A stretch of 64,000 bases of DNA from Marchantia polymorpha subsp. ruderalis (taxonomy: Eukaryota; Streptophyta; Marchantiopsida; Marchantiales; Marchantiaceae). Numbering within the stretch: the stretch's first letter is position 1; every line of letters begins with the position of its first letter. The notes under the pieces are model-generated. The model was not told the DNA's origin and did not search any database. It saw nothing but the letters and a program-made list of their open reading frames with translations. A program made the translations under genes and the position numbers. Shown in pieces: positions 17,297 through 50,888 of the stretch. The stretch is from NCBI GenBank assembly GCA_037833965.1, contig AP031352.1, positions 8,288,501-8,352,500 of the forward strand, given 5' to 3'.

Positions 17297-18488
17297 TGTG
17301 GTACCCCACTTTTGGCAATTTTGAGGAAATTAAAACATTTTTGGAAAACTGTACCTTGGCAGCATTGTAAATAGCCTTCGGTACATCAAAACGGAGTGAA
17401 TCCGGAAGATCGCGGGGATTCTCGAGGGATCTTGTAGAATCTAGGATTTGGGGTGCAGCAGTAAGGACAGGCACCACCCTCCCTGCGAGCTCTGCAGTTA
17501 GGATCCCTGCGACGCAAGGCGCAAAACCCGCCTTTGGAGGTGTCCGCGGCGGTAGGGAAATCCTCCATAATTAGGTCAACCCTCGGGCGCCTTGACCGAG
17601 TTAGGGTCTCGTTGGAAAGAGCTCAACGCACTGATTCCAACGAGTCCAAGAACGCTTGGAACGGATGAGGACTTAGGGAGTTATCACTATTGGAACATAC
17701 GGAGACGGTCGCCTTCGGCGGAAGGAGTTCGCCACCGGCGGGAATTACGCCTACGCGGAAGGGGGAATCAGGTTTTGTCCTATGCGCGGACGAAGGCGTT
17801 CGCCTGTGCACAGGCGAAGTAGGGTTTGGGGAGGCGCGAAGTCCGCCTACGCACAGGCGTTCGCCTGTGCGCCTTGTGAGGTAGAAAGTGTACGGCGCCT
17901 TCTGCGCCAGCGCGGCGCCGCGGACGAGCAAGGAGCCGCCAGAGGAATCAAATCCGTACGGACAATGCGGACGGGACGGGTGGATGCGCTCTTGGACGGA
18001 CGGAGTTGCGGCGGCGGAAGCGCCGACGAAGAGACAAGGAACGGACAGACTGGACGGAGACGGCTGACCACGGTCAACGCCTTCCGCGCCAGCGCGACGC
18101 CGCGCACGGAGTTCGCCTGCGCACAGGTGAGCGCCTGTGCACAGGAGAATGAAGTTCCGCGCCGGCGGAGAATCCGCCGAGGAGTCCGCCTGCGCACAGG
18201 CAGGGGTTGAACTTTTGTCCGACATGCGGACACACGCGTCAAGGCAGAAGGGGATTGGCCGAGGGGCGGTACGAACAAGTGTACCGCGCAAGGCGGAAAA
18301 CTCGCCTTCGGCGCTGCGCTCCCATGTCCGCGGGGTAATACGCTCGCGGAGTTCAAATCCGCCAATTCGAGCGTGAGAGTTTAATCGGCGACGGCGGAGC
18401 GTGAAGCCGCGCGTGAGAGCGGAGACCGTTCCAGCGTAGAGCCGGCGCGGCCATCAAGTGAGACGTTCTCCACGAGCAAGAGCCGACC

Positions 18489-21400
18489 ATGACCTTCGAC
18501 CGGACGGCGGAGAACGTCCCATTCTTGAATTCGCGATTCCAATCTCTTGTGCGCGCTGCGCGCATCCATCTGCTAGCTGCTAAACATTCTCGACGTCGCC
18601 GCACAGGGGATTTCTTGGTGATTGAGGGAGAAGTGAGTGCGCGGGATTTGGAATTGAGGGCGATTAGAGTTTGCCGAGAGAGAAAGGAGCTCGGGCGGTG
18701 CGGAAGTAGAATGAGCGGGCGAGCGAACTCCAGGAACGCAATGACGAGACCGGGCAGATTGCGGATGGTGCCACTTCGCCTACCACAGAACGGGCTGCGC
18801 GCTTTCGAGGAGCGCTTAATAGCAAGAAAGCTCGATTTCTTGCTATGGGGATGGAACTACATCTGTGCGAATATGGTGCGCGAGTGGCTAGAGCCACAGG
18901 GACCACCCTCGCGCGGATTGCGTCCGCATGTTGATCGGTGGACAGTCCAAGATTGGGCGCAGGCATTGGGAAGATGTGCCGGCATGCCAGGGCATCTCCT
19001 TTTCGACAGTGAGAGCATCAAGGTGACCAAGCAGGAAGAGGCGCAATTTGTGGAGCTGTTCAAGACCGGGAGGTCTACCAAGAATGGGTACAGGACCCGT
19101 GATTACAAGGATCGATTTCGCCGGACTTTGTCCGCGGCGCTGATGCAATTACTGCAGCCACACCGCGCCTGCTACATCACATTGTGGCAGGTCTCTTTTG
19201 TGGAGTGCGTCATCGAGGGAACTCCAATTCACTGGGCGAGCATCCTGCACAGGGTGATGCGACAGCACGCTTTTGAGGAGAAGGGGGGAACTCTAAACCA
19301 TCTCTCTCCTTTCCTCATCAATTTTTATCGACAGCGGAATTGTTTGACAGCGGCGGAGCTTGAGCATTTTCCGCCGTTGTCCGTCGACCATCCCGGGAAG
19401 TATGTACGGGAGAATGAGGTCGACACTGATGCAGAGGAGTCACCGACTTCTACCCCATCAAGGCGGAGGGACGAAGGGAGAAACACTCCTGCAGCACGAG
19501 TGCCGCGGAAACGGCGATGGAGAGAAGAGTCCGAAGAGGAACAGCATCAAGAACCCTCTGCTCCCATTCGACCGCGGCCGTTGTACGAGTCATACAGCCG
19601 GCCGAAGCAGAAGGCACGCAGACTGGTGTTACCAGCCAACAGTGCGGACACGGCGACGATTGCGACGGAGAAAGGAAGTGCGTCGCCAGAGAAGCATGAG
19701 GAAGCGCGGACGACCGCAGGAGCAACGGACCACGCTGCAGCCTCGACGGGCGAGAGGCCGCCTACGGGCCAAGGGCCTCCGGAGTTACCACGTGCGTTGC
19801 GGACAGATGTTCCGTTTGCGCACAGACGAGACTCCGCGGACGGACGAGCCTCCGCGGACAGGCGATCACAAGCGGACGTAGATCTACGCTTACGCGTGGG
19901 AAGGAGCAGTCCGCCTGTGCACAGGCGCTCGCCTGTGCACAGGTCACCTGTGCACAGGTCACCTCCACACGTGCCGCCTGTGCACAGGCAGGAATCACCC
20001 CCGTTCCAACGAAGGAAGGGGAAGGAGCCGGCGGAAGAGCCGCCTACGAGACACCGGCCCTCGAGGCCAGACCCTCCGGCGCACCACGCGCCGCAATTTG
20101 CGCCTTCGGCGCCAGGGCCTTCGAGCCGCGGAGATACGAGCAGGGAGTGTACGGAGACCACACTATCGGCGGGTAATCCGCCGGTAGATGCGCCTTCGGC
20201 GGTAGGGCCTCAGGGCCAAGGGACATCGGGCGAGCGGCCCCCGGCCATGTCGCCTTTGGCGGTGGACGTCCGCGGCGCTACGCCTGCGGCGGACAAGGCG
20301 CCGGCATTTGCGCCTGCGCAGAGGCCAAGCACAGCCCCCACGGACCGATCAAGGGAGCAGCAACAGACGGAGGAGAGAAGTGACTGTCCGCGGGATGAAA
20401 TTTCGATGCGCGATGCGCAATCAAACCCAGCGCAGCCACCCTCCGCTCGATCGCCTTCGGCGGCGGGCGTCGGCGGCAGAGAGGACACGGTAGACGACCA
20501 ACAAGCGAGCGGCGGGGATGCCGCACGGGCACATTCGCCTACCGCCTTAGACATTTTGGCGAAGAGCAGCGAGGCTGCAGCCGTTCCTTCGCAGGCAGCA
20601 CACGTCGACGACGTGCAGCCCCACTCGGGTCAGTCGCCGACGCAATCAATGGCGACTAAAATTCTCCACTCGGATAATGACGACGGAGGCTACACCGAAG
20701 AAATGTCAGGAGCAGAGGACACTGAGGCGGAGGAGGAGGAAATTGTTGGAGCGCCGGCGGCGGCGCTCTCTGAGCAGGTGATTCCGTTGCTGAGGTACTT
20801 GGATCGCAAGATCGATAAATACGCCGACCCACTTCAGCCGGGATCTTACATCGAGTTAGTGCGCAGGCGGACTCGCACTAAAGTCCACACCAGCAAGCTA
20901 TTAGCTAGAGTGGACCAGGAGTTGAGGGAATTGAAGGAGAAGCATGCATGCTTGTGGGGTCAGTATAAACTTAATCAGAAATTCTACAAGTACTCCGAGA
21001 AGGTGAGGGATGAGAAACTGGACGAGCTCACCAAGGAGCAGGTGAAGGTCAAGGAAGCACTAATTTCTGAGCAGGCCCAGAATCGGATTTTGTCAGAGGA
21101 GCTCGTGCGACAGACGCGGTTGTTGGAACAATGTCAGCTCGCACGGCAGGCGGATGAGGAGTTAATCCGCAGGTTACAGTCAGAGTGTGGCGAATTGAGA
21201 GCGCAACGTGCTGAGGCCGAATCGCAATTAGTGATAATTGAAGAGGATCGCAGGAAGGAGGCAGATCGCACGAAGGTGGAGACGGCGAGGCGTGTCGCCC
21301 ACTGTCTCAAGGGCTACGCCCACTGGGAAGTGAAGGCACAGGAGAAACTCACACTGCGTGAGTTTGAACTTCGCGCAGCCGGGTTGTTGTCAGGCGACAG

Positions 21401-21629
21401 TAGGAGTAGGCGGAAGGTAGCAAAGAAGCTCGATGCTTTTCTGTCCAAGGCGCAGGATACCATGTCCGCCCTCGAAGTGGAGGTGTCCGCGGCGTTGCAA
21501 CGATTGGGACTGCGCAGTCGAGCGGAAGATTGGCAGGGTAGGGGGTTAGTGCGCGGCAGTCCGCCGCGCAGGAGACGTAGCACAGGTTCCGCGGAGTGTA
21601 GTGTAGCGTGGTTCCGTGCAGGCGTGTAG
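18489..21629 (+). CDS. LTR (U3)-encoded protein of unknown function, family A, 5' LTR copy
   Basis: This is a 1046-codon frame inside U3, sense to gag-pol. I do not recognise the protein. Residues ~85-290 form a conserved domain (LDFLLWGWN, GRCAG, RTRDYKDR, GGTLNHLSP). Residues ~300-700 are a low-complexity Pro/Arg/Ser-rich linker with PVHRR repeats. Residues ~770-1000 are predicted coiled coil, ending in a conserved basic tail (RRRRSTGSAECS). The N-terminal and C-terminal parts match the family-B LTR protein while the linker does not. Homology with family B begins at the ATG at 18741 (context AACGCAATG in both), so the real start may be there, giving 962 aa. The genomic RNA would carry this frame downstream of pol, the position of env-like genes in Athila elements. 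A distant relation to that class is only a guess. Confidence 0.7.
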   Translation: MTFDRTAENVPFLNSRFQSLVRAARIHLLAAKHSRRRRTGDFLVIEGEVSARDLELRAIRVCRERKELGRCGSRMSGRANSRNAMTRPGRLRMVPLRLPQNGLRAFEERLIARKLDFLLWGWNYICANMVREWLEPQGPPSRGLRPHVDRWTVQDWAQALGRCAGMPGHLLFDSESIKVTKQEEAQFVELFKTGRSTKNGYRTRDYKDRFRRTLSAALMQLLQPHRACYITLWQVSFVECVIEGTPIHWASILHRVMRQHAFEEKGGTLNHLSPFLINFYRQRNCLTAAELEHFPPLSVDHPGKYVRENEVDTDAEESPTSTPSRRRDEGRNTPAARVPRKRRWREESEEEQHQEPSAPIRPRPLYESYSRPKQKARRLVLPANSADTATIATEKGSASPEKHEEARTTAGATDHAAASTGERPPTGQGPPELPRALRTDVPFAHRRDSADGRASADRRSQADVDLRLRVGRSSPPVHRRSPVHRSPVHRSPPHVPPVHRQESPPFQRRKGKEPAEEPPTRHRPSRPDPPAHHAPQFAPSAPGPSSRGDTSRECTETTLSAGNPPVDAPSAVGPQGQGTSGERPPAMSPLAVDVRGATPAADKAPAFAPAQRPSTAPTDRSREQQQTEERSDCPRDEISMRDAQSNPAQPPSARSPSAAGVGGREDTVDDQQASGGDAARAHSPTALDILAKSSEAAAVPSQAAHVDDVQPHSGQSPTQSMATKILHSDNDDGGYTEEMSGAEDTEAEEEEIVGAPAAALSEQVIPLLRYLDRKIDKYADPLQPGSYIELVRRRTRTKVHTSKLLARVDQELRELKEKHACLWGQYKLNQKFYKYSEKVRDEKLDELTKEQVKVKEALISEQAQNRILSEELVRQTRLLEQCQLARQADEELIRRLQSECGELRAQRAEAESQLVIIEEDRRKEADRTKVETARRVAHCLKGYAHWEVKAQEKLTLREFELRAAGLLSGDSRSRRKVAKKLDAFLSKAQDTMSALEVEVSAALQRLGLRSRAEDWQGRGLVRGSPPRRRRSTGSAECSVAWFRAGV

Positions 21630-21665
21630 CGTAGTGCAGTGTAGTGCTAGTTAGGACTTAGAAGG

Positions 21666-21674
21666 TATAAAATA
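21666..21674 (+). promoter_or_regulatory. LTR TATA box, family A 5' LTR
   Basis: TATAAAATA lies 37 nt after the stop of the LTR-encoded frame. Family B has TATAAAGTA at the equivalent place. It should define the U3/R boundary, which puts the LTR frame in U3. Confidence 0.65.
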
Positions 21675-21677
21675 GTT

Positions 21678-22659: not shown

Positions 22660-22679
22660 TGGCGCCGCTGCCGGGGACA
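22660..22679 (+). other. Primer binding site (tRNA-Asp type), family A
   Basis: TGGCGCCGCTGCCGGGGACA closely complements the 3' end of plant tRNA-Asp (usual PBS TGGCGCCGTTGCCGGGGAT). It begins 22 nt after the LTR end, further than the usual few bases, and the same spacing is found in family B. Confidence 0.75.
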
Positions 22680-22723
22680 GTTGCGTCAACACCGGGGTTT
22701 TTATGAGCAGCCATGCTCGGTGA

Positions 22724-25558
22724 ATGTCGACTGGAGCTAGCGGGAGCAACCTAAGTGCAAGAGCTGTCCGTAGGTTCCGACGAGATTCAGAGAAGGCCGT
22801 GGAAGAGACACGGCGTCAAAACAAGAAAACACCAAAAAGAGTACCTAAGCCTAGTTCGGCCGACATCCTTGGGGAACCTACCCCCGGCGGCTCGGAACCA
22901 AACTTGGTGCTTACAGTTCTACTAGATATTCCTTGCACGGACCCTCCTCGTGATTTAGAAACGACCGCCCGAGAACCGTCGACAGACACACTGATGGCGG
23001 ACGGACAAGCCAATGTGCGGCTACCTCAGCCGATTACTAAACATTCCTACCCAAAGTATAAAGGGAGTGGGGATGACGACGATGCAGATTCATACATTAA
23101 GTTGTTCGAATCGGTGTCTATTGCCAATCGCGAGATCGCAGACAACGACCGACTAAGGATCTTTCCAAGCCTTCTGCGGAAGAAAGCGAGGAGTTGGTAC
23201 AATCACGAGAGCATCGATCCGACTGGGTTGACAACATGGGCCCAGCTGAAGGAGAAGTTCCTTCGCCGCTTCCGTGAGCTCGGCTACGACAGTCGGGTAT
23301 TGACAAAGTTACGTAATTTGCAGCGAGAGAAGAAGGAGAGTCTGCGTGACTACACTGAGAGATTTCTGGACCTCCTTGACAGAATACCGAAAACAGGACC
23401 AGGGTCCCCTTTCTCGGTACAACAAGCTGTGGATTGGTACGTGACCGGTTTAACTCGGGAGATGGAGACTTTTTGCCGACGCAGCAAGTGCGACACTATT
23501 GAGGATGTGATTGCATCGGCAGAAGCCTTCGAAACTTCCACTCTCAACCGAAGAGGGAGAGAGAGACGGGAGTCAAAGGAGCGAAAACCGAAGGGAGGGC
23601 GAAGACGACGTAGAGGTATAACTCCGTCATCGGAGGAATCGTCTTCGGACGAGAACCGTTCCTCATCCGAAGAAGAGGAAACCTCATCGTCGGAGGAGGA
23701 GAAGAAGAGGAAGAAGCATGGGGCAGCGAAGAAGAAGGGCACCCGACGAGTGACTACGGACAGAGCGCCGGGAGACATAGCCTCGAAGATGGAGACCCTC
23801 GTGAAGGACTTCGCCGACCTCAAGGTTCAAGTGGTAGGCGGGCATGATCGCCGAAAATCACCCGGGAGAGTGCGAGCGAACTTATGGTGTACAACGTGCG
23901 GAGCGGTGGGACATGCAAACACCGAGTGCCTTACCACCCGTCCGTCATATCCAGTCAACGCAGTAGAGTGGGCACAACCGTACTATGGAGAGCACCCCCA
24001 GTACTATGGAGAGGCTAGCGAAGAGACAGCCTACGCCGTCCAGTCGGTTCCCACCCCCACTGCAGTTTCAGCAATGCAAGTCCCACGATATCATCCGGTG
24101 GATCGGGCCACTACAGTACCCGTGAGGCGGAGAGCACCTCCAGGGACGTTTGACCCACCGCCACCGCGAGCTTGTTATAATTGCGGGGAAGTTGGACACT
24201 TCTCACCGCAGTGTCCCCATCCAAAAAGGCGAAACGATTATGTTCCGACATGTAGTAATTGCAAGAAGACCGGACATACTGCGCCAGAGTGTGATCAGCC
24301 ACCAGTTCCTCGGCCAGCGGTACGATTTGTGAACCCTCCTGCCAAGGAGGACGTCCAAGTTAACCAGGTCGAAGTAGGTTCAGACGGGGATGACGAAGAC
24401 GAAGAATGGCCGGCGGAAGAGGTTATGTGCGCACGGGTCGAAACTCGTAGTTCCAAGAAATCGAAGGAGCAAGAGCGGGACACCCGCAAGCACGAACGGA
24501 GAACCGACGACCGGACGGGAAAAGGGAAGGAGAAGACACCCAGCAAGTCCGACTTGCGACCTGCACGGAAGTCTTCGGTTACGCGAGAGGCACCAGCAGT
24601 GCGCCCCCAGACAGCAGTCGAGGATGAGCCAGTACGCTTGCTGAAACGGGACTATGCTCCGGATATCCGCAACGAGGTAACCAACCTGTTGAAGGAAGCG
24701 ATCCGCACTCAAAAGGACCCACAGCGGCCAGACTTGCCATCCTTCCTTGGGGCGAAGTTGGCAGCCACCGTGGAACCTCGCAGAGCGTCGCCGCCGACCC
24801 CGGCGACCCAACGCGCCCACTATGACTTGGTCGAAGATCTCGGGAGTCGGAAAGTGAACATCACGTTCAAGCAGCTCCTGGAGGACAACAAGACGTATCG
24901 AAGAATGTTGATGCTTTCGCTACGACGTCCGCGGAAGCCGCGCGCATCCACATCCTCTCAAGTATATCAAGTGGAGAGCGAAGACCTAGGGCCACCAGAG
25001 ATCGATGTGGAAATAGCAGGGTGTTGTGTACGCAGGGTACCAATCGACTCTGGGTCAGGAGTCAACATAATGACGGAGGATACCGCGAGAGCCTTGGGGT
25101 TCAGTCAATACGAACCCTCGAAGCGTGTGTTGAGATTAGCGGATCAGACGCGGAGAATGCCTGCAGGTATGTTGCGCAATGTCAAAACAATCATCGGTGG
25201 TGCGGACTTTCGGTTGACGTATATCATCCTTCAACCGATGATGAAGCAGGGCTATGACGTTCTGCTCGGGCGACCATGGCTAAATGGCGCACAAGTCAGA
25301 TGTGATTGGCGAAGGCATCGCCTTAAGTTTCCCCATCCTTCGGAACCGACCAAGACCATTACGGTGCCCTGGAATAGGGTCAGACACGAAGGAGAGACCC
25401 CATCGACAAGTGCAGGTTACACATCGGGCGGGGACAGTGAGTCGACCGCGCGATCGGATTCCAGTGGTACCGAATCCGATTATTTCGTGGGATTCGTTGC
25501 CTGCTGTTCGGTAGGAGAAGAAGGAGAGCCGGAAGCTATTCCGCCGGAAGACGAATAG
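22724..25558 (+). CDS. gag: Gag-protease polyprotein, family A
   Basis: This 944 aa product packages the element RNA and carries the protease. The retrotransposon gag domain lies at about residues 100-270 (RSWYNHES, WAQLKEKFLRRF, AVDWYVTGL). A Ser/Glu/Lys-rich linker follows, then three CX2CX4HX4C zinc knuckles near residues 388 (CTTCGAVGHANTEC), 484 (CYNCGEVGHFSPQC) and 510 (CSNCKKTGHTAPEC). The aspartic protease active site is DSGSG at about residue 775. The ATG is the first good start after the primer site. The frame ends in TAG at 25556-25558 in a readthrough context, with pol continuing in the same frame. Confidence 0.92.
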   Translation: MSTGASGSNLSARAVRRFRRDSEKAVEETRRQNKKTPKRVPKPSSADILGEPTPGGSEPNLVLTVLLDIPCTDPPRDLETTAREPSTDTLMADGQANVRLPQPITKHSYPKYKGSGDDDDADSYIKLFESVSIANREIADNDRLRIFPSLLRKKARSWYNHESIDPTGLTTWAQLKEKFLRRFRELGYDSRVLTKLRNLQREKKESLRDYTERFLDLLDRIPKTGPGSPFSVQQAVDWYVTGLTREMETFCRRSKCDTIEDVIASAEAFETSTLNRRGRERRESKERKPKGGRRRRRGITPSSEESSSDENRSSSEEEETSSSEEEKKRKKHGAAKKKGTRRVTTDRAPGDIASKMETLVKDFADLKVQVVGGHDRRKSPGRVRANLWCTTCGAVGHANTECLTTRPSYPVNAVEWAQPYYGEHPQYYGEASEETAYAVQSVPTPTAVSAMQVPRYHPVDRATTVPVRRRAPPGTFDPPPPRACYNCGEVGHFSPQCPHPKRRNDYVPTCSNCKKTGHTAPECDQPPVPRPAVRFVNPPAKEDVQVNQVEVGSDGDDEDEEWPAEEVMCARVETRSSKKSKEQERDTRKHERRTDDRTGKGKEKTPSKSDLRPARKSSVTREAPAVRPQTAVEDEPVRLLKRDYAPDIRNEVTNLLKEAIRTQKDPQRPDLPSFLGAKLAATVEPRRASPPTPATQRAHYDLVEDLGSRKVNITFKQLLEDNKTYRRMLMLSLRRPRKPRASTSSQVYQVESEDLGPPEIDVEIAGCCVRRVPIDSGSGVNIMTEDTARALGFSQYEPSKRVLRLADQTRRMPAGMLRNVKTIIGGADFRLTYIILQPMMKQGYDVLLGRPWLNGAQVRCDWRRHRLKFPHPSEPTKTITVPWNRVRHEGETPSTSAGYTSGGDSESTARSDSSGTESDYFVGFVACCSVGEEGEPEAIPPEDE

Positions 25559-25564
25559 CAATTA
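25556..25564 (+). promoter_or_regulatory. Leaky stop signal UAG-CAA-UUA between gag-PR and pol
   Basis: The gag stop TAG is followed by CAATTA, matching the UAG-CAR-YYA context that promotes translational readthrough in tobamoviruses and in the soybean retroelement SIRE1. Downstream codons stay in frame into pol with no stop until the mutation at 25982. Confidence 0.75.
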
Positions 25565-28399: not shown

Positions 28400-28423
28400 G
28401 TGTTCGCGTGGGCGCTCACAATT

Positions 28424-28436
28424 GAGGAGGGGAGCA
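28424..28436 (+). other. Polypurine tract, family A
   Basis: GAGGAGGGGAGCA lies directly before the 3' LTR start TGTGGTACC and should prime plus-strand DNA synthesis. Family B has GAGGAGGGGGGCA at the same position. Confidence 0.8.
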
Positions 28437-29677
28437 TGTGGTACCCCACTTTTGGCAATTTTGAGGAAATTAAAACATTTTTGGAAAACTGTACCCTGGC
28501 AACATTGTAAATAGCCTTCGGTACATCAAAACGGAGTGAATCCGGAAGATCGCGGGGATTCTCGAGGGATCTTGTAGAATCTAGGATTTGGGGTGCAGCA
28601 GTAAGGACAGGCACCACCCTCCCTGCGAGCTCTGCAGTTAGGATCCCTGCGACGCAAGGCGCAAAACCCGCCTTTGGAGGTGTCCGCGGCGGTAGGGAAA
28701 TCCTCCATAATTAGGTCAACCCTCGGGCGCCTTGACCGAGTTAGGGTCTCGTTGGAAAGAGCTCGACGCACTGATTCCAACGAGTCCAAGAACGCTTGGA
28801 ACGGATGAGGACTTAGGGAGTTATCACTATTGGAACATACGGAGACGGTCGCCTTCGGCGGAAGGAGTTCGCCACCGGCGGGAATTCCGCCTACGCGGAA
28901 GGGGGAATCAAGTTTTGTCCTATGCGCGGACGAAGGCGTTCGCCTGTGCACAGGCGAAGTAGGGTTTGGGGAGGCGCGAAGTCCGCCTACGCACAGGCGT
29001 TCGCCTGTGCACAGGCGCTTCGGCGTCGGCGGAAAATCCGCCTTGGGCTCTAGAAATGCGCCTTGTGAGGTAGAAAGTGTACGGCGCCTTCTGCGCCAGC
29101 GCGGCGCCGCGGACGAGCAAGGAGCCGCCAGAGGAATCAAATCCGTACGGACCATGCGGACGGGACGGGTGGATGCGCTCTTGGACGGACGGAGTTGCGG
29201 CGGCGGAAGCGCCGACGAAGAGACAAGGAACGGACAGACTGGACGGAGACGGCTGACCACGGTCAACGCCTTCCGCGCCAGCGCGACGCCGCGCACGGAG
29301 TTCGCCTGCGCACAGGTGAGCACCTGTGCACAGGAGAATGAAGTTCCGCGCCGGCGGAGAATCCGCCGAGGAGTCCGCCTGCGCACAGGCAGGGGTTGAA
29401 CTTTTGTCCGACATGCGGACACACGCGTCAAGGCAGAAGGGGATTGGCCGAGGGGCGGTACGAACAAGTGTACCGCGCAAGGCGGAAAACTCGCCTTCGG
29501 CGCTGCGCTCCCATGTCCGCAGGGTAATACGCTCACGGAGTTCAAATCCGCCAATTCGAGCGTGAGAGTTTAATCGGCGACGGCGGAGCGTGAAGCCGCG
29601 CGTGAGAGCGGAGACCGTTCCAGCGTAGAGCCAGCGCGGCCATCAAGTGAGACGTTCTCCACGAGCAAGAGCCGACC

Positions 29678-32818: not shown

Positions 32819-32854
32819 CGTAGTGCAGTGTAGTGCTAGTTAGGACTTAGAAGG

Positions 32855-32863
32855 TATAAAATA
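32855..32863 (+). promoter_or_regulatory. LTR TATA box, family A 3' LTR
   Basis: TATAAAATA is identical to the 5' LTR copy and is followed by the same CCAGGC-GTTTT-GCCTGG hairpin at 32867-32883. It could drive transcription outward toward OMT gene 3, antisense to that gene. Confidence 0.55.
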
Positions 32864-42900: not shown

Positions 42901-45900
42901 GCGTGGTCGGCGCAACGAAAGCATCAGCATCCTCCTGTACGTCTTATTGTCTTCCAACAACTGGTGGAAGGAAATATTTGCCCTCTGGCTCCCCATGTCT
43001 TTCACTATGTCGTAGGGAGTGCTGGAAGTCACGGCCGGAAGTTTCCCTGTACTCGCGGTCGGAAGGGGTGTAGGGGGCCTAACTGCCTTCCGGTCGTCGG
43101 ATGTCATTCCGGCGCCCAGTGCTTCCTTGATGAGGTGACTCACCTCATCTTTGATGTCCGGAAGGTAATCTCGAGTCCGGAACTCTTCTGAATACCTGTC
43201 CGCCTTTTCTGAGTTCTGCTCCGGCTGGGTGTTTCTCATAGCCGGAGGTGTACTTGGCGTTCTCCTTTGGCCTTCTCTAACTTCTTTAGACTTCCTCCTC
43301 TCTTCCCTACGCTCGAGGCGGCGAGTGTCCTCATGGCCTTCTCCTCTCCTCTTCGAACTTCGGGTTTCTACCCGGCCGCACATTACTTCTTCCTCTGGCC
43401 ATACTTCGTCTCCTTCAGCTGGGTCCAGACTCAGTTCTACCTGGTTGACCTGCACCTCTTCCTTGCCAGGTGTTGATACGAAACGCACGGCTGGCCTAGG
43501 GATTTGGGGCTGGTCACATTCAGCTGCTGTATGTCCGGACTTCTTGCAATTGCTGCACAATGGTGCATACCCCATTGGCTTCCTCGGGTGGGGACAACTT
43601 GGCGCGTAATGCCCCATGTCTCCGCAGTTGTAGCAACCATCGAATTGTGGTCGAGGTCGGTGATTTCCTGTGTGATTTCCTGGAGGTGCCATGCGTCTTG
43701 GTGGGAGTGTACCCGCCATTTCCCTCGGAACAAAGCGCGGTATATGCACCGGTGGGTTCGGAGTTGTAGCTGGAGCTGTCTGTACCGAGTAGGCGGTGTC
43801 CTCCACCTGCTCAGCATAATACATAGGCGGCTCAGCATAATACATGGGGTTCTCCCACTGTGGTGCCCATTCGACCGCATTCACTGGGTAAGATGGCCTC
43901 GCGGACATGCACTCCGTGTTGGCATGTCCCACCTGTCCGCACGTAGTACACCAGAGATTCGCTCGTTGTCTTGCAGGTGATTTACGTCGGTCTTGGCCTC
44001 CCACTACATGAACTTTCAGGTCCGCAAAATTCTTCACCAGGTTGTCTACCTTGGCTGCGATGTCCCCTTGAGTCTTCACTGGGATTCCCTTACCTCGATC
44101 CTTCTTCTTGATCGCACTGCGTTTCTTCTTCCGTCTTTCTTCTTCTGAAGATGACGAGTCCTCTTCCTCTTCCGAGGAAGAACTTGATTCGGAGGAGCTT
44201 GATTCTTCTGTCGAGGAAGGCGAGTTCCTTCTCTTCCGACGTCCGCCTTGCGACTTCTTCTTCGTCGACCGTCGGTCGCGTCTTCGAGTGTCAAGGGTTG
44301 ACGTCTCAAAGGTCTCCGCGGAAGCTATCACATCTTGGATTGTGTCAGTCTTGCCTCTCCTACAGAAGGTCTCCATTTCTCTTGGGAGCCCTGTCACATA
44401 CCAATCCACTGCCTGTTGTACCGAATACGGTTCTCCCGGGCCTGTCTTCGGAATTCGATCTAGGAGGTCTTGGAATCTCTCAGTGTAGTCTCGAAGATTC
44501 TCCTTCCGCTCGCGTCGAAGATTTCGAAGCCGGGTCAGAACTCGACTGTCATATCCGAGTTCGCGGAACCGCTTCAGAAACTTTTCCTTGAGCTGAGCCC
44601 AGGTCCGGATGCCAGTGGGGTCGGTGCTCTCATGGTTGTACCAGCTACGCGCTCGTTTGCGTAGCAGGCTAGGAAAGATTCGTAATCTGTCTTCATCACT
44701 GGTCTCACGATTGGCGATGGAGACAGACTCGAAGAGCTTTATGTATGAATCTGCATCATCGTCGTCGCCCGTTCCCGTGTATCTTGGATACGAATGTTTG
44801 GTGGTAGGTTGGGAAAACACCTGGCGGAGATTGGCTTGATGTTCTGCCATCGGTGATCCTGTCGACGGACTGATCCTAGGTTGGCCAAACTCAGGAAGAG
44901 TTCCTGTCGGAGGGATGTCCAATAGAATCGTTAGCTCAATGCTCTCGGTAGGTGAACTGGAACACCTTTGTCTTCCAGTAGTCGGTGATGGCGATCTTTC
45001 TGCAGAGTCCTCACCGGGAGTCTTCTTTTTAGTTCGCCGTTTTGTTTCCACGGCTTTTTCTGAATCTCGACGGAGTTTCCGTGTGGCTCTCGCACTCAGG
45101 TTTCCCACACTATCGCTCGTCGACATTCACCGAGCATTGCTGCTCAAGGTTTCTGGTGTTGACGCACTGTCCCCGGCAGCGGCGCCAAAAAGAAGTTGTC
45201 GGCTCCTTATGTAATAACCCACCAAAGGCTAAAACTGCAGTATGGTGGTAAAAAGATCGAACCCACAGGGACAGAGGCAACACACAGAGTAAAAGTGTCA
45301 CATTTAACAGACTTTTGGTAGAGTTTGAATTCTAGGCGACTGTCACTCCCAGAAATACTGCAGTGCTCGACTCGGAGGCTCGACTCGGAGGAGGATCTCA
45401 ACTCGGAGGATGCTCGGAGGATGCACGGTACAGCTTGGTCACTCAACACACACACACACACCTGAAACTGGCAAAAAGCACAACTCGGAGGTCGGTCAGG
45501 ACCTCCGCTTCGGATTTCAGGAGGAAAGTGTCTCGCAAGTTCACTCAGAGGTTCTGCAGGAAGTGCCTCCCACTCCGGCTTTTACTGCCCTTCCGCCAGG
45601 AACTAGCGGGGGTACCCGGACTGGACTTCTCACTTCGGAACGAAGCCTCTACGTACGCCGTGGACGTCACCCTCGACTATCACACAAAACGCAGGGAGTG
45701 CAGACCCGACTGAGAACTTACTGAAAACACGATCCAGTAACACACACACAACCTGAATTACAAACCAAGGTTTACACGAAGTAATGAAACTTCACATTGG
45801 CATTCAGGGGAAACTTCCCGTAGGAGTACAATCAGGATATGTCACTCGAAGGAGTAAGGGGGAACTGTTCAAGTATCTAACTCGCAGCCGGCTCTGAGTA

Positions 45901-48900
45901 TCAGAAATCACCCGCAGGTGCAGATCCGCACTACTCAAGTCTCTAACCGGGTACTAGCTCTGAACATTCAGCCGAAGGCCTTCAACTACAACATACGGTA
46001 ACTTCGCTATGCTGCAGCTTCTCTACGTGGTGCCAGGACCAAAATGCACAAACACGCCAAGAAAGTGAGTTCCTGATCTGCACTTCCGAAACTGGAAGAG
46101 TCCCAAGGCAAAACGCCTTGATCTACTTTATACTCTCAAAAGATCCTAACTAGCACTACGCTATCCTATCTACCACTCGCAGCATCTGCGCGAAACCAAA
46201 CTACTCTACTGCACTCAGCAGATCCGGTGCTGCGCCTCCTGCGCGCCGGACTGCTCCGCGTACTATCTCTACCTTGCCAGTCTTCCGACCGGCTGCGTAA
46301 CCCCAGGCGTCGGAGTGCTGCAGTGACTTCCGACTGCAAGTGCGCCATAGTGTCGCGCGCACCCGACAAGAAAGTTTCTAATTTTCTTGCCACTCGCCGC
46401 CGACTCCGACTGTCACCTTCCGTCAATGCCGCCGCCCGAAGCTCGAACTCCCGGAGTGTAACCCTCTCTTGAGCTGCCACCTCCCAATGGGTGTATCCGT
46501 TTAGACAACGAGTCACCCGTGCCGCCAACTCTCCTCGTGCCCTGCAGCTGCTCTCCACCTCTGCCAGCTGCATTTCTAAATCCGCACGTTGTGTCCTCAA
46601 ATCCGAGCACTCGGTTTGCAAGTTGCACAACAACTCCTCATCCTCCTTCCGGGCTCTTTGACTTTCCTCTAAGGCGCGCGTCTGGCGCGCAAGCTCGGCT
46701 GCTAGGACTTCGTTCTGTCTCCGCTCCTCCTGCAGTTCCGACTCGATCTTTGCCCGTATTAGTTCGGCCTCCGCCTGACTCTTCGTCGCCGCATCCTCCT
46801 TCTGCTGCTGCAAGGCTTGGTACAGCTTCTGGGTGACCGCCAGGTGTTGTCGGAGGGCGGTGTTCCTATCCACATATACTCCGCATCTAGAGGCCCACCT
46901 TGCCACCTTGCTCCTCGTCCTTCGCCTGATTGTCTCCACATAAGACTGCGGTTTTAAGGCACTTGCGTATTTGGATGTCTTGCGATCCAGATATCGCAGG
47001 AGTGGAACTATCTGTTCGCACAGCACCCCTGTTGGCGTTTTCTGCACCGAATCCTCTTCTTGCTCTTCCGAGCTCGTCTCATCCTCAGTCTCGAGGATCT
47101 CAGTCGCCACCGAATCCCTTGGCGACTCCCTGGAACTGTGGCGCGCAGCAGCTTCTGCTGCGACTGCTGCTCCACTGCCTGCTAAAATATCCAGGGCAGT
47201 GGGAGATCCCACTGCTTGAGCCCCTGTTCCGGCTCGATCTTCGGTTTGTGAAGGGGTCGACGCCGCAGTGACTTTTGTCACTCTTGCACCGCCCGCTTCT
47301 GCTGCCTGTCCTTCCGGCGCAATCTGCGCGGAAGGTGTCCTTGCTGAAGGTGCGTCCGCCGAAGGCGTCCGCACACTGGTCGTTGGCCCCATCCGTCTCG
47401 CAGTCGGCGAATCCGGCTGACTCTCTGTTGTCCGACTCGCAGTCGGCCGACCAGCAGTTGTCCGACTGGGAGTCGGATACACCCTGCGCGTCTTGACTCC
47501 ACTTGGCCTGCTTGTTGGGGGCGTTCTTCCAGAAGTGCCTTCCGCCGAAGACGACCCTCTGAGGATTGTTGGCTCGTCAGCCAAACTCTCTTCCGTTTCC
47601 GGCCTGCTGTCCGGTTCAACGCGCCGTTCAGTTGGCCTTCCTTCCGTCTGTCGACCTTCAGTCATCCGACTCGCAGTCGGCCGGCTGTCAGTCCGTCCAT
47701 CTCCTCCCGAAGGCCGTGGTGCCTTCTGTGCAGAGGTTTCTGCCGTCTTCCCTAGAACCTGAGCGATTATCTCTTCCTGTGTGAGATTCCGCCGGGTCGG
47801 AGTTCGCCTGGTCTCCTCAGTAACAGTTGGCATCCTGCGTGCCCTCTGTTTTGGTCGACTATGAGGCTCGGGGGTGGGCCGACCACGAGTCGGCGCAGCT
47901 GGTACTTCCGGCTGCCTGTCCTCAGGTCTCTCATCCCACTTCCGCTTGCGCGGAATGCGCTCACTTCGACGTTCTTCTGCTGCTCTGGCTGGAGCCGGAG
48001 CCGGAGGCGTACTGGCAGGTTCCTCGTCCGGATCCGTGTCTACTTCGGCCTCCCTCGAATATCTACCTGGATAAGACCGGCTCAGCTGCGGAAACCGAGT
48101 TTTCTCAGCATTCGTCAAACATCCCATCGCCCGGTAAAACACGATTAAGTAAGGCGATAGATGATTGAGCGTTCCTCCCCTCTCTTCTTGCGCATGTTGG
48201 CGCGTCACCTTCCACAGGAGCCGTGCCCAATGCACCGGAGCTCCTGACAACACTAGCTCCACGAACTCTACCTGCCAACCATGCATGTAAGCGGTCTTGG
48301 TCGGCTGCAATATCTGCAGCAATGCTGTCGCGACATTTCTCCGCAATCGATCCTTGTAATCCCGAGTCCGGAAACCGTTCTTGGGATGTCTGGCCACTTT
48401 GAAGAGCTCATTGTAAGAGACTTCTTCCTCCTGGGACACCTTCACGCTATCGGCCTCGAAGAGGAGATCCCCTTCCTCGCCGGCACACCTGCCCAACACC
48501 TGCGCCCAATTGCAAATTTCCCATCTCTCTGGGTGTGGGCGAAATCCGCGAGAAGGCTTGTGTCTCTCTTGCAGATACTCGCGCACCATCTCCGGACACG
48601 TCCAATTCCACCCCCAGAGGAGAAAATCGAGCTTCAGCCTCGTCAGCACATCTTGAAATGCGCGTAGACCGATCTGCGGCACCCTGAGTGGAGACACTCG
48701 CAGTTGGGGAACCTTCGACATTGCGTTGCCTGCACACACAAACGTTCTCCCTTTCGCTCACTCTCTCACAATCGCCACTGCGCGTCGGCCACTCAAGCAC
48801 TGACTGCTCACTCTCTCTGCGCTCGTTCAAGATCGCTACTCCCAATTCTTTCGAGGTCCGCCAAGATCCTTGTGCAACTCGTCTCCGCACTCTCTACTCT

Positions 48901-50888
48901 CACTGCAGGTCGCTCCGCCCTTGCGCGTAATCTTGGAACTGGAAATTGCAAAGTCAAGAATGAGAGAATGAGACTGGAGCGCAGTCTTTTCTTCTCCGAT
49001 TTCAAGAACGTCCAACGTTCTTACTGGTTGCAACGTACGCAGCCGGCTATACGGCTTAACGGTTCGCCCTTTGCATGCGCGAATTCACGTCTCCACCTTG
49101 CGCGCATTCGCATGCTTAAACGTTGAATTCTCCCGCCGCCGCCACCTTCCGGACTCGAGTCCGCTGCAGGGTATACGTCGGCCCTGTTGTCTTTTCCTAA
49201 CCCGCCCTTCTCCGGAGGCGTGTCGCCGCTGGTGCGTTCATTATCCGTCGGCGCCTTGCTGGAGGCGCACATCCAGCCGGAGCGAATTACGCCGGCGCGC
49301 AGTCGTACCGCCTATTTTGTCCTTTATGCCTCGTCCGTTGCTGCCAGCGCATATCCGTCAGCGCAACTCGTGCCAGCGCATCCGGCCGTCAGCGCCACGT
49401 CGGAGGCGTACATCCGACCGGCGCTTTCCTTCCATGAACAGCCGCCAAAGGCGCTTCCGACTCTGAGTTGGTTTCCTCCTGTGAGCGCGTGATTCCGCCG
49501 AAGGCGCATCGCCGAGGGCGTACGGGAATCCTTTCCGGCTGTGAACCCTAGCGCGAACGGCGCATGTCCGGCTACGAGTTTTCCGACGCTCATAACTTCT
49601 CCATTCCTGATCCATCTCCGGCGCTCTTGGGCTCGTTAGAACGAGCGTCCCGAGCTCTTTCTAATGCAACTTCAACCAACTGGATCTACCGTGTATCCCG
49701 ATTGTTATGAAGGTTTTCCCTTTCCGCGCTAGCGGCGCTTCGCCGAAGGCGCACTCATGGTCGGATGCCTTTAGAGGTCCGGGCCCTTCTCCTGACGTCT
49801 TTAGCAAAACCTCCTCCTGAGGTGTCTGCGCCGGAAGCGTAGCTTCCTTGTACGCTAGAGGCGCGTGAGTAGAGACACCTCAAAAAGAAGCCTTTGCCGA
49901 AGGCGCCGAAGACGTTGGCGTTGGTACATCCGACTACGTGATTCTTTGTGCCCTCGTGACGATCTCATCAATCCACTCTATTTAGCGTACCCTTCTCTAG
50001 CTACAAACACTGCTTTGGTACTAGTTTTCTAAAATTGTTTAAATTCTGCAAAAAAACAAAAAGTGTGTTACCACAATTCCTGTGGAAATAGAGCTGTAGA
50101 TAACAGTGCATACTATATGTCTGCAGTATGTAATGAGCGAGGAAGGGAGAGACAACCGTACTTGGCACTTGCAGCCCGTCGGCTACTACATGTGGTTGGT
50201 CGAAATTGATTCCGCGTAAATTCGGGTACTTGGGCAGGATCATGGCCAAAGTTGCACCCAACCCACCGCCCACATCTACTAATGAGGTCAAGGTCTCAAA
50301 GCCTCTGTAATTCTTCAGTAACGCCGAGATCTTTATGTTGGAATGATCATGCATGGCTTTGTTAAACAGCTTGTCAAGCTTAGCATCTGTTGCAATATAC
50401 TCAAACAAGTTCATCCCATGATCAAGCGTATGAGGCTCCGCATTCACATCCAGAACTGGCAAGTGAAGGTTTTGAAAGGTTGGTACGAAAACAGGATCAG
50501 TAGACAGAAGAAGAAATGGAGCTAGCGAAACTCCATCTTCGTTATCAGTGAAATACTTGAGAGTTGAAGTGGGTCCATAACTCCTCTGAGTACAGTCGGA
50601 GTCATTGCCATTCTTCGATACAATCTCTGTCACGATGTTGTTCGATGCCAAGACTCTCAAGATGCGATCCAAATTTTTGGGATCTGCACAGCAGTTCGAG
50701 ACCTTGGCAATGGACGTCGCAATCTCTTCAGCTGTGAGCTCAGCTCCAGGACCTGCGTCCACCAAGATTTTTGGTACACCTAAATTTATGGCAGCTTTCA
50801 AAGTGAATGGGAGGGTAACCATCACAGACATCTGCAAAGCTTGCAGCATCCCAGCTTCGTCATCTCCAAAGTTTTGCTGTGGACTCAT
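33918..50888 (-). CDS. COMT-like O-methyltransferase, gene 3 (intron 1 holds a 15.5 kb retrotransposon)
   Basis: The exons are 50888-50162, 34494-34430 and 34217-33918, encoding 363 aa with no stop or frameshift. Without the element and one ATTCC copy, intron 1 would be exactly 131 bp, as in genes 1, 4 and 5. Splice sites are kept (CCAA|GTACGG donor, GTTGCAG|AT acceptor, and ATAG acceptor for exon 3 where siblings have ACAG). Motifs are LVDVGGGLG near residue 202, WILHDW with His268, Asp296 in place of the usual catalytic Glu (context VINLD), and Glu328 (context RERT). It is most like gene 5. The element lies in the same orientation as the gene, so its terminators or silencing could truncate the transcript. 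Whether full-length mRNA is made cannot be told from sequence. Confidence 0.85.
34545..39410 (-). repeat. Family-B 3' LTR (4866 bp)
   Basis: Read on the minus strand it runs from TGTGGTAACACAC to GGTGGGTTATTACA. It is offset by exactly 10665 from the 5' LTR. A TATA box (TATAAAGTA) is at 35459-35467 and a hairpin at 35439-35455. Confidence 0.92.
35501..38056 (-). CDS. LTR (U3)-encoded protein of unknown function, family B, 3' LTR copy
   Basis: This 851 aa frame lies in U3, sense to gag-pol, from the first ATG (38056, context AACGCAATG as in family A). An upstream in-frame TGA excludes a longer ATG start. The N-terminal ~200 residues contain GLRAF, LDFLLWGWNW, QVLGRCAG, FRTRDYKDR, VHWARLLW and GGTLNHLSPYLI, closely matching family A. 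The middle is rich in Thr, Pro, Arg and Ser (RPTASRTTE repeats). From about residue 600 a long coiled coil (QEERRQNEVLAAELARQTRA) is followed by the conserved THWEVAAQE, LREFELRAA and LRSRSEDWQGR segments and a basic tail. No enzyme or membrane motif is seen. The function is unknown. Confidence 0.72.
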   Translation of the reverse strand: MSKVPQLRVSPLRVPQIGLRAFQDVLTRLKLDFLLWGWNWTCPEMVREYLQERHKPSRGFRPHPERWEICNWAQVLGRCAGEEGDLLFEADSVKVSQEEEVSYNELFKVARHPKNGFRTRDYKDRLRRNVATALLQILQPTKTAYMHGWQVEFVELVLSGAPVHWARLLWKVTRQHAQEERGGTLNHLSPYLIVFYRAMGCLTNAEKTRFPQLSRSYPGRYSREAEVDTDPDEEPASTPPAPAPARAAEERRSERIPRKRKWDERPEDRQPEVPAAPTRGRPTPEPHSRPKQRARRMPTVTEETRRTPTRRNLTQEEIIAQVLGKTAETSAQKAPRPSGGDGRTDSRPTASRMTEGRQTEGRPTERRVEPDSRPETEESLADEPTILRGSSSAEGTSGRTPPTSRPSGVKTRRVYPTPSRTTAGRPTASRTTESQPDSPTARRMGPTTSVRTPSADAPSARTPSAQIAPEGQAAEAGGARVTKVTAASTPSQTEDRAGTGAQAVGSPTALDILAGSGAAVAAEAAARHSSRESPRDSVATEILETEDETSSEEQEEDSVQKTPTGVLCEQIVPLLRYLDRKTSKYASALKPQSYVETIRRRTRSKVARWASRCGVYVDRNTALRQHLAVTQKLYQALQQQKEDAATKSQAEAELIRAKIESELQEERRQNEVLAAELARQTRALEESQRARKEDEELLCNLQTECSDLRTQRADLEMQLAEVESSCRARGELAARVTRCLNGYTHWEVAAQERVTLREFELRAAALTEGDSRSRRRVARKLETFLSGARDTMAHLQSEVTAALRRLGLRSRSEDWQGRDSTRSSPARRRRSTGSAECSRVVWFRADAASGR
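39411..39428 (-). other. Polypurine tract, family B
   Basis: CAATTGAGGAGGGGGGCA on the minus strand directly precedes the 3' LTR. It corresponds to the tract at 28424-28436 of family A. Confidence 0.8.
39448..42288 (-). CDS. pol: Pol: reverse transcriptase-RNase H-integrase, family B
   Basis: This intact frame continues directly after the gag UAG (946 codons without a stop), so it needs readthrough rather than its own start. Numbering from the TTG codon at 42189, the RT active site is FIDD near residue 206. RNase H (HVYVDTSAFA) is near 353, the integrase zinc finger cysteines (CDSCQRTG) near 603, and the catalytic D, D and E lie in GIDFVGP (~635), SDRGTHFLN (~697) and NGLTEKSNG (~728). The GPY/F-like module WMGPYKVIEVF is near 874. 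The protein ends LKKYHV and has no chromodomain. It copies the RNA to DNA and inserts it. It is about 85-90% identical to family A without its nonsense codons. Confidence 0.92.
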   Translation of the reverse strand, partial: QLAAGLGRSEISHTEGIVDPSDCCELQLSPGKGLKVSSQVQGEELNRIQAFLRQYEDVFAWKIEDMKGIPARYGEHRIDLLDEAVPVRQRQYRLNPKYSLLVKDEIDKYLSAGIIYPVLSSEWVSPIVIVPKKLTGKIRVCQDFRKLNAATRKDHHPLPFTDSILDHVAGHECYSFLDGFSGYNQVSIREQDKDKTTFTTDWGTYAYHKMPFGLCNAPATFQRMMTNIFQEHLRKFLEIFIDDFCVFGKRSEHLNHLRQTFDRCRESSLSLHPEKCFFFMTSGILLGHRVSSDGIAVDVEKVKIILELQPPTNLRELRAFLGHVGYYRRFINMYAILAADLTKLLKKDEPYVWGKEQQLAFETLKAKLTTAPVLRSPDWNRPFHVYVDTSAFAIGVVLSQKDDNKKDYPIYFASRQLSAAEKKYTTTEREALGMVYSCKKFRHYLICYEFVFHVDHYALQHLVKKADLSGRIARWVLLLQEFTYTVQTRKGVHHENADYLSRLWTEPIEEEVVDDFPDEQLFQLSASHESRYADLYRFLLTLQCPEGLDAEQRTVFVHKAGPYQLQQGVLFKKMADERLCRCLEESEVPRVVKAMHTEDAGGHYATRNTVTKIVNAGYWWPTMFKDVHDYVRKCDSCQRTGRPTPTTRWPLTPIMPLAPFEKWGIDFVGPIQPVTKGTRRRYILVATDYATKMVEAEATRHDDAAAVARFLFESIITRYGCPLEIVSDRGTHFLNQVIESLTRHFQIKHRKTTPYNPKANGLTEKSNGLLCKILLKVTVNHAHDWDTKLPAALWAYRTAEKVTTRQTPYFLVYGQHPILPIEFEIPTKRTLDQRRLDAEESQAYRLQEVMALEERRQEAEDRTKQLQLRRKEKYDRRLKPVLLEKGDLALLYDSRHARFPGKLHLRWMGPYKVIEVFPNGSIQLAELTGEWLGTRVNGWRLKKYHV
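42283..42291 (-). promoter_or_regulatory. Leaky stop signal UAG-CAA-CUA between gag-PR and pol
   Basis: The gag TAG is followed by CAACTA, which fits UAG-CAR-YYA although the last codon differs from family A (CAATTA). The 33 codons up to the first TTG in pol are open and match family A (GLGRSE, SHTEGIVDP). Confidence 0.78.
42289..45126 (-). CDS. gag: Gag-protease polyprotein, family B
   Basis: This 945 aa protein is intact from the ATG at 45126. The gag domain includes SWYNHESTDP, WAQLKEKFLKRF and AVDWYVTGLPREME. A long Ser/Glu/Lys-rich segment follows. Three zinc knuckles follow: CTTCGQVGHANTEC, CYNCGDMGHYAPSC and CSNCKKSGHTAAEC. The protease active site is DSGSG near residue 780, with the flap and C-terminal region (YDVLLGRPWL) downstream. 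It aligns along its length with the family-A protein. It ends in a UAG with readthrough context, so Gag-PR should be the major product and Gag-PR-Pol the minor one. Confidence 0.92.
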   Translation of the reverse strand: MSTSDSVGNLSARATRKLRRDSEKAVETKRRTKKKTPGEDSAERSPSPTTGRQRCSSSPTESIELTILLDIPPTGTLPEFGQPRISPSTGSPMAEHQANLRQVFSQPTTKHSYPRYTGTGDDDDADSYIKLFESVSIANRETSDEDRLRIFPSLLRKRARSWYNHESTDPTGIRTWAQLKEKFLKRFRELGYDSRVLTRLRNLRRERKENLRDYTERFQDLLDRIPKTGPGEPYSVQQAVDWYVTGLPREMETFCRRGKTDTIQDVIASAETFETSTLDTRRRDRRSTKKKSQGGRRKRRNSPSSTEESSSSESSSSSEEEEDSSSSEEERRKKKRSAIKKKDRGKGIPVKTQGDIAAKVDNLVKNFADLKVHVVGGQDRRKSPARQRANLWCTTCGQVGHANTECMSARPSYPVNAVEWAPQWENPMYYAEPPMYYAEQVEDTAYSVQTAPATTPNPPVHIPRFVPREMAGTLPPRRMAPPGNHTGNHRPRPQFDGCYNCGDMGHYAPSCPHPRKPMGYAPLCSNCKKSGHTAAECDQPQIPRPAVRFVSTPGKEEVQVNQVELSLDPAEGDEVWPEEEVMCGRVETRSSKRRGEGHEDTRRLERREERRKSKEVREGQRRTPSTPPAMRNTQPEQNSEKADRYSEEFRTRDYLPDIKDEVSHLIKEALGAGMTSDDRKAVRPPTPLPTASTGKLPAVTSSTPYDIVKDMGSQRANISFHQLLEDNKTYRRMLMLSLRRPRKPRKEKLPAVYRVEGGDLGPPEIEVEIGGCVIQKVPVDSGSGVNIMTEETANSLGFQTFEPTSRVLRLADQTRRMPLGMLSNVRTNIGGVDFQLSYIILQPLMKKGYDVLLGRPWLYEAKARCDWSRKRLQFRSPADPPTVITVPWTKVPHEGETPSTTSGYTTGGETSSTCTSETETSEDFVGYVTCCSIEEERDEVYPDEE
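45168..45187 (-). other. Primer binding site (tRNA-Asp type), family B
   Basis: TGGCGCCGCTGCCGGGGACA on the minus strand is identical to that of family A. It also starts 22 nt past the 5' LTR. Confidence 0.75.
46124..46132 (-). promoter_or_regulatory. LTR TATA box, family B 5' LTR
   Basis: TATAAAGTA on the minus strand lies 34 nt after the stop of the LTR-encoded frame and 4 nt before the CAAGGC-GTTTT-GCCTTG hairpin (46104-46120). It is the presumed promoter for the genomic RNA. Confidence 0.6.
46166..48721 (-). CDS. LTR (U3)-encoded protein of unknown function, family B, 5' LTR copy
   Basis: It is identical in protein sequence to the copy at 35501-38056, as expected for a recently inserted element. 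In this 5' copy the frame lies upstream of the LTR TATA box. It would be transcribed only by a promoter further upstream, or by OMT gene 3 transcription running through its intron. See the 3' copy for domains. Confidence 0.72.
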   Translation of the reverse strand: MSKVPQLRVSPLRVPQIGLRAFQDVLTRLKLDFLLWGWNWTCPEMVREYLQERHKPSRGFRPHPERWEICNWAQVLGRCAGEEGDLLFEADSVKVSQEEEVSYNELFKVARHPKNGFRTRDYKDRLRRNVATALLQILQPTKTAYMHGWQVEFVELVLSGAPVHWARLLWKVTRQHAQEERGGTLNHLSPYLIVFYRAMGCLTNAEKTRFPQLSRSYPGRYSREAEVDTDPDEEPASTPPAPAPARAAEERRSERIPRKRKWDERPEDRQPEVPAAPTRGRPTPEPHSRPKQRARRMPTVTEETRRTPTRRNLTQEEIIAQVLGKTAETSAQKAPRPSGGDGRTDSRPTASRMTEGRQTEGRPTERRVEPDSRPETEESLADEPTILRGSSSAEGTSGRTPPTSRPSGVKTRRVYPTPSRTTAGRPTASRTTESQPDSPTARRMGPTTSVRTPSADAPSARTPSAQIAPEGQAAEAGGARVTKVTAASTPSQTEDRAGTGAQAVGSPTALDILAGSGAAVAAEAAARHSSRESPRDSVATEILETEDETSSEEQEEDSVQKTPTGVLCEQIVPLLRYLDRKTSKYASALKPQSYVETIRRRTRSKVARWASRCGVYVDRNTALRQHLAVTQKLYQALQQQKEDAATKSQAEAELIRAKIESELQEERRQNEVLAAELARQTRALEESQRARKEDEELLCNLQTECSDLRTQRADLEMQLAEVESSCRARGELAARVTRCLNGYTHWEVAAQERVTLREFELRAAALTEGDSRSRRRVARKLETFLSGARDTMAHLQSEVTAALRRLGLRSRSEDWQGRDSTRSSPARRRRSTGSAECSRVVWFRADAASGR

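Follow-up and report, generated by a model that had tools for sequence, protein, structure and literature searches.

Introduction

Can the long terminal repeat (LTR) of a plant retrotransposon house a protein gene of its own? The question is raised by a 64,000-nucleotide stretch of the liverwort Marchantia polymorpha subsp. ruderalis (GenBank assembly GCA_037833965.1, contig AP031352.1, positions 8,288,501 to 8,352,500 of the forward strand), referred to here as the window and numbered from its first letter. The window carries two Ty3/Gypsy long-LTR families of one retrotransposon group, represented by element A on the plus strand and element B on the minus strand. An earlier note, made by reading the DNA, had described an uninterrupted sense frame in the U3 region of all four complete LTRs and had argued for selection on a protein rather than chance openness in GC-rich DNA. 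Both proposals hold up in the analysis below, which leaves us highly confident that a real protein gene under selection lies inside the LTR.

A long frame in the U3 region of each complete LTR

Self-BLAST defined the LTR pair of A at 17297–22637 (5′) and 28437–33825 (3′), with 97.6% identity, and that of B at 34545–39410 (3′) and 45210–50075 (5′), with 99.98% identity; because the LTRs of B differ at 1 of 4866 bases, its insertion is very young. The LTRs of both elements start with TGTGG and finish with TTACA (TG...CA ends), have a GC content of 0.56–0.58 and measure 4.9–5.4 kb, a size explained by the complete protein gene housed in U3. Each of the four contains a single long frame that runs in the same direction as gag-pol and lies between polypurine tract and TATA box. 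In A, the ORF list gives 1046 codons from an ATG (18489–21629 in the 5′ LTR and 29678–32818 in the 3′ LTR, plus strand); in B, there are 857 codons from a GTG (35501–38074 in the 3′ LTR and an identical frame at 46166–48739 in the 5′ LTR, minus strand). From stop to stop, the lengths are 1055 and 863 codons. The TATA box (TATAAAATAG or TATAAAGTAG) lies 33–36 nt past the stop of the frame in each full LTR (at 21666–21675 in the 5′ LTR of A, where U3 ends, and at 46123–46132 on the minus strand in that of B), which places the frame within U3. The A LTRs have one additional TATAAA, inside the frame. Alignment of family members revealed a common ATG at residue 85 in A (18741 and 29930 in the two LTRs) and residue 7 in B (38056), at which several gene models start, and the likely proteins are therefore 962 and 851 amino acids long.

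Chance openness was assessed by first-order Markov simulation, with 1000 trials for each of four sequences and the longest of six frames recorded. The simulated maxima were 471 codons for the A LTR, 405 for the B LTR, 416 for the A frame and 476 for the B frame, against 1055 and 863 in the real sequences. An alternative to a protein gene is that the DNA or RNA itself is selected, the open frame being a by-product of cis-acting U3 functions (packaging, promoter activity or escape from silencing) in GC-rich DNA. The GC content of the LTRs and the cis signals that LTRs carry are in keeping with this idea, as is a substitution density as high inside the frame as outside it; the simulated maxima argue against it, as does the codon-level evidence that follows.

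Selection on the encoded protein

Between A and B, synonymous change is close to or past saturation, and for this reason we report proportions of nonsynonymous and synonymous differences (pN and pS). The N-terminal domain (A residues 89–314, 226 codons) shows 59% amino acid identity between the families, with a pN of 0.29 and a pS of 0.73, and the C-terminal domain (A residues 759–1046, 274 codons) shows 57% identity, with values of 0.29 and 0.83, giving a pN/pS of 0.36–0.40 over the two. The middle (261 codons) is 36% identical (pN 0.47, pS 0.79), so that alike termini flank an unlike middle, as had been noted at first sight. The control genes gave a pN of 0.23 and a pS of 0.81 for gag, and 0.06 and 0.83 for pol. 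When the aligned DNA of the N- and C-terminal domains was read in the five alternative frames, A–B identity was 0.26–0.47 with 10–25 stops, compared with 0.56–0.58 and no stop in the true frame. Thus the ratio is not near 1 and no other frame is equally conserved, the two outcomes named in advance as speaking against selection on the protein. Upstream of the gene, the families share 48% identity in non-coding U3 (40% in one shuffled control); after the frame, in R-U5, they share 78%. Purifying selection is strongest in the N-terminal domain of about 225 residues, clear in the C-terminal part and weakest in the Pro/Ser/Arg-rich middle.

Within family A, comparison of the 5′ and 3′ LTR frames yielded an omega (dN/dS) of 0.48, with a bootstrap interval of 0.31–1.00. 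The B frame was compared with a truncated B-type LTR piece at 14284–17296 (minus strand, located by ORFs and self-BLAST), in which the U3 frame is cut and interrupted by a stop, leaving 499 amino acids at 15244–16743; here omega was 0.31 (0.17–0.53). None of the 8 indels seen in these two comparisons falls inside the frame, which makes up 62% of the DNA compared (p = 4e-4). A third comparison, between the 3′ LTR of A and a truncated A-type LTR piece at 12962–14282 (plus strand, self-BLAST), takes in 75 nt of frame and has 4 indels, again with none in the frame; it was left out of the count.

Copies across the genome were sought with A residues 1–337 as the query against the 241,466,482-base assembly of 9 contigs, which gave 8395 candidates at first look. 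At least 119 A-type copies were scored, all with 98–100% identity; a stop occurs within the query span in 7 of them, and 54 are open for at least 1000 residues without a stop. In the 30 best copies, pN/pS is 0.042 for residues 85–337 and 0.36 for residues 1–84; 3 of the 30 have a stop in the span examined. Variable sites in these copies are distributed 15/11/62 over codon positions 1/2/3 (p = 1e-12), and with 62 of 88 at third positions only a sampling artefact could rescue constraint on the DNA or RNA itself. Thirteen of the 30, in which the frame stays open for 800 codons or more within the locus, allowed the unqueried stretches to be followed: pN/pS is 0.50 for residues 338–682, 0.37 for 683–758 and 0.27 for 759–836, with 0.063 for the N-terminal domain (85–314) in the same copies.

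For the unqueried C-terminal domain we compared 19 copies, namely 17 of 20 fetched (two of them frameshifted and two with stops) and the two of the window. Singletons comprised 30 synonymous, 25 nonsynonymous and 3 stop changes (30/58 synonymous against about 30% expected, p = 8e-4), while shared changes comprised 28 synonymous, 19 nonsynonymous and no stop changes (28/47 against about 30%, p = 4e-5). This synonymous excess is a further point against cis-acting constraint. On the simulation, the alternative frames, the absence of all 8 indels from the frame, the codon positions and the C-terminal changes, we reject both chance openness and constraint on the DNA itself, the latter retaining a very slight probability.

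Solo LTRs and the persistence of the gene

The ends of 30 copies were sought in a non-random sample: the 20 copies ranking directly behind the two of the window, and 10 picked for open frames. Six of the first 20, with truncated or rearranged ends, were set aside. Ten of the 14 tested are solo LTRs with identical 5-bp flanks; one is a 5′ LTR followed by a leader, one a 3′ LTR preceded by a polypurine tract, and two were left unassigned. The 10 open-frame copies comprise five solo LTRs, two 5′ LTRs, one 3′ LTR and two without assignment. Solo LTRs with 5-bp target duplications therefore account for 15 of the 20 resolvable copies among the 30 tried, some with the gene open, so that the gene outlasts the loss of gag-pol.

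The genomic RNA of an LTR retrotransposon has the order R-U5-gag-pol-U3-R, and reverse transcription copies U3 into both LTRs. A gene in U3 would accordingly follow pol on the genomic RNA, the placement first proposed for this frame and agreeing with its position in U3, and would be doubled by reverse transcription, so that LTR–LTR recombination deletes gag-pol and leaves the gene. It is conceivable, although we consider it doubtful, that the LTR is the unit that carries and spreads the gene: a trans-acting regulator in U3 would be delivered twice per insertion, and solo LTRs would stay working sources. If so, there would be a dispersed, self-renewing pool of regulator genes acting on the whole element group. 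No plant description of gene-bearing solo LTRs was found in the literature searched.

The many solo LTRs with an open frame would also suit the capture of a host gene by U3, or solo LTRs that now serve the host, with selection being partly a host matter. None of the homologous proteins retrieved could be recognised as a single-copy host gene, however, and the many near-identical copies together with several divergent families favour an element gene, which makes a host role improbable.

The protein and its possible role

Neither protein has a transmembrane-grade segment, the best 19-residue Kyte-Doolittle mean being 1.14 in A and 1.22 in B (no dedicated predictor was run). Their net charges are +22 and +25, and the C-terminus reads as a coiled coil with a basic tail. 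Profile searches of the U3 proteins gave no match to Transposase_28 (PF04195), the plant mobile domain (PF10536) or Athila ORF-1 (PF03078). PF20167, which the earlier note had suggested checking, found no support: neither A and B nor any of five homologues matched it at E up to 10, and it was absent among the families at E up to 1 in 25 sequences, although there may be a faint likeness in helix pattern. A PDB sequence search with the A protein returned no match at E up to 1, and PHROGs gave nothing for the N-terminal domain and weak coiled-coil-type matches for the C-terminal domain (best E 0.008). Two AlphaFold2 runs on the N-terminal domain gave mostly helical models with a mean predicted local distance difference test (pLDDT) score of 52.5 and 55.2, too poor to read, and the best Foldseek hits (E 3.2 in PDB, 3.9 in BFVD) were discarded. 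No Pfam, PDB or fold relative was found, and no named family for the protein emerged, as first supposed.

Three homologue searches returned 11 proteins, 36 proteins, and 68 with the N-terminal domain at E up to 10. None contained a homologue with a named source outside Marchantia polymorpha, 5 of the 36 and 7 of the 68 being without a source name (‘lgn’); in the searches giving 11 and 36 proteins, scoring was confined to the 7994 candidates with the most words in common, of which many were probably attracted by the low-complexity middle. Among 20 sequences that span 150 or more of the 171 residues of a core region, pairwise identity is at least 0.53 (mean 0.70), with 25 invariant positions. 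Long gene models such as P0060 and P0067 contain parts of both protein ends. In the predicted protein P0010 (MARPO_0006s0274), residues like B 473–612 are fused to gag, the LTR-then-gag order at another locus; this may be a prediction artefact, or may reflect a read-through or spliced transcript from a U3 promoter.

Given the missing membrane segment, the charge, the coiled coil and basic tail and the survival of the gene in solo LTRs, an intracellular trans-acting regulator is the likeliest role, and we put a regulatory or nucleic-acid-binding accessory protein at a little under an even chance. Such a protein would act on the element's own nucleic acid, in transcription, silencing or RNA handling, with the coiled coil mediating self-assembly and the basic parts mediating binding. 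Next in our ranking, and unlikely, comes a structural or spread function, as part of the particle or as a factor resembling env or movement proteins, of the kind proposed for the post-pol sense frames of Athila and SIRE; the host role discussed above ranks last. The position after pol on the genomic RNA, the strongly conserved N-terminal domain and a coiled coil that could serve assembly would all fit a structural or spread function, but there is no transmembrane-grade stretch, Pfam families for gag, env or movement proteins are not matched, and gag is encoded separately.

The gene could be expressed through splicing or a subgenomic RNA made from the full element, or else by a promoter within the initial 1.2–1.4 kb of U3. 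The stretch separating pol from the shared ATG contains 12 ATGs in A and 19 in B, which is why the protein would have to be translated from a spliced or subgenomic RNA or from one driven by a promoter of the gene itself. A splice-site scan found donor-like CAGGTGTGT at similar positions in the two leaders, within a GT repeat, and a strong acceptor-like site near the beginning of U3 in B but none in A. As to origin, a shift of the polypurine tract that drew a downstream gene into the LTR is possible, but its simplest form is strained, because the 33–36 nt between frame and TATA box leave almost no room for an old polypurine tract and U3.

Taken as a whole, the favoured explanation, a selected U3 gene encoding an accessory regulator, has in our estimation an even chance of being correct. 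Several points weigh against it. The regulatory role draws on absences and composition, and the models of the N-terminal domain could not be read. The omega interval of the A 5′–3′ comparison extends to 1.0, and substitutions are no rarer in the frame than outside it (45/3141 against 26/2200 in A, 64/2053 against 15/956 in B). The full frame is missing in 65 of the 119 scored A copies. The copies used for the N-terminal domain were chosen by protein score, which biases pN downward; the head (residues 1–84), equally biased, offers a partial control. Finally, 25 copies that were not screened for decay differ from one another by 0.073 per site, with 6.7 indels per pair, over the 2400 nt beginning at the frame start, compared with 0.025 and 2.4 in the preceding non-coding U3. 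We read this excess as decay in copies without the full frame, because the gaps start past the queried 337 codons and 65 of the 119 lack the full frame.

Organisation of elements A and B

In both elements the primer-binding site begins 22 nt past the 5′ LTR (22660–22680 in A; 45168–45187, minus strand, in B) and is presumably tRNA-Asp-like. It is followed by gag-pro (22724–25558 in A; 42289–45126 in B) and pol (25559–28363 in A; 39448–42288, open, in B), and a purine-rich tract adjoins the 3′ LTR (28424–28436 in A; 39411–39423 in B). Pfam profiles recognised gag-pro, reverse transcriptase, RNase H and integrase in that order. No chromodomain was detected at E up to 1 in B pol (913 amino acids) or the A pol part, and the LTR begins directly after pol; nor was there a second, archaeal-type RNase H as in Tat elements (Ogre, Retand), RT_RNaseH families alone appearing at E up to 1. 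By domain order and missing chromodomain, A and B may belong with the plant non-chromovirus Ty3/Gypsy elements (OTA superclade). The A copy is broken by an in-frame TAG at 25982–25984 (plus strand) in the reverse transcriptase, a stop that B does not have.

gag-pro and pol share one frame with a single TAG between them, read as TAG-CAATTA at 25556–25564 (plus strand) in A and TAG-CAACTA at 42283–42291 (minus strand) in B. UAG-CAR-YYA is the leaky stop context of tobamoviruses. As this context is kept in both families, gag-pol is probably made by stop-codon readthrough. No comparable case in plant gypsy elements was found in the portion of PMC5009743 available to us.

The surroundings of A are complex. 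The target duplication ATAAT occurs at 12957–12961, before the A-type piece, and at 33826–33830, after the 3′ LTR of A, and the 5′ LTR of A directly abuts the cut B-type LTR at 17297. The A-type piece is 97.1% identical to the 3′ LTR and 93.6% to the 5′ LTR. Element A is composite rather than a simple insertion; a nested insertion and then recombination between two A copies would explain the arrangement. The palindrome CCTGTGCACAGG has 16 sites between 13474 and 31177, in A-type LTR sequences only and none in B, situated in non-coding U3 and the repeat-rich middle of the A frame.

Element B is inserted in one copy of a repeated O-methyltransferase gene region, with the target duplication GGAAT on both sides. 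The repeats cover 1–2265, 8913–10778, 33826–34544 with 50076–51668, and 57838–64000, and the frame at 675–1586 in one of them matches PF00891 and PF08100. An AT-rich tandem array at 56258–56800 has 7.8 copies of a 71-bp unit.

Discussion

A protein gene in a retroviral U3, doubled by reverse transcription, is familiar from sag of mouse mammary tumour virus (MMTV) and from nef; the MMTV LTR is reportedly described in PMC9412291 as one that ‘contains an ORF’. The A/B frame resembles sag in lying inside U3 and being present in both LTRs. It differs in that MMTV is a vertebrate retrovirus and in being about three times as long as sag. No sequence relation between the two was found, though no direct search was made. 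The parallels first drawn with sag and with the env-like frame of Athila hold for position only; in contrast to an env-like protein, neither A nor B has a transmembrane-grade segment, and there is no PF03078 match.

Among plant elements, the OTA/Athila type (eORF-3′F, ‘env-like’) is alike in the order gag-pro-RT-RNase H-integrase, the missing chromodomain, the sense frame after pol and large size, according to the parts of PMC6317226 and PMC7264820 at hand. The Athila-type ORF, however, lies in the internal region between pol and the 3′ LTR, whereas the A/B frame is inside U3. Retand elements have antisense TRP28 (PF04195) frames between pol and the 3′ LTR, suggested to be regulatory, and LTRs of 315–1194 bp (PMC11963269, in part). 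They share with A/B a conserved extra protein beyond pol, but the A/B frame is sense, in the LTR and without a PF04195 match. The rice elements Retrosat2, RIRE3 and RIRE8 have LTRs over 3 kb and a fast-evolving ORF0 of unknown role upstream of gag-pol (PMC3485330, in part), and Retrosat-2 is classed in the chromovirus clade Tekay (PMC6317226, in part). Compared by description only, they are like A/B in their long LTRs and fast-evolving extra protein, and unlike in the location of ORF0 upstream of the gag-pol frame. No description of a conserved gene inside a plant retrotransposon LTR was found in the accessible parts of PMC6317226, PMC11963269, PMC3485330, PMC7264820, PMC9985172, PMC12885004, PMC10714607 and PMC5009743, nor elsewhere in the literature covered, most subscription papers and preprints lying outside the search.

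The extra ORFs of plant LTR retrotransposons are so divergent that their having any function has been questioned (PMC6317226, in part). The A/B frame contrasts with this picture: it is common to divergent families, is under measurable purifying selection, and is borne on the LTR, where it is copied twice and persists in solo LTRs after the rest of the element is gone. Since the homologues with a named source bear ‘hypothetical protein’-type names, liverwort gene lists may contain LTR-borne frames under such labels. The group makes the role of an accessory retrotransposon protein open to study in a tractable system, a model liverwort.
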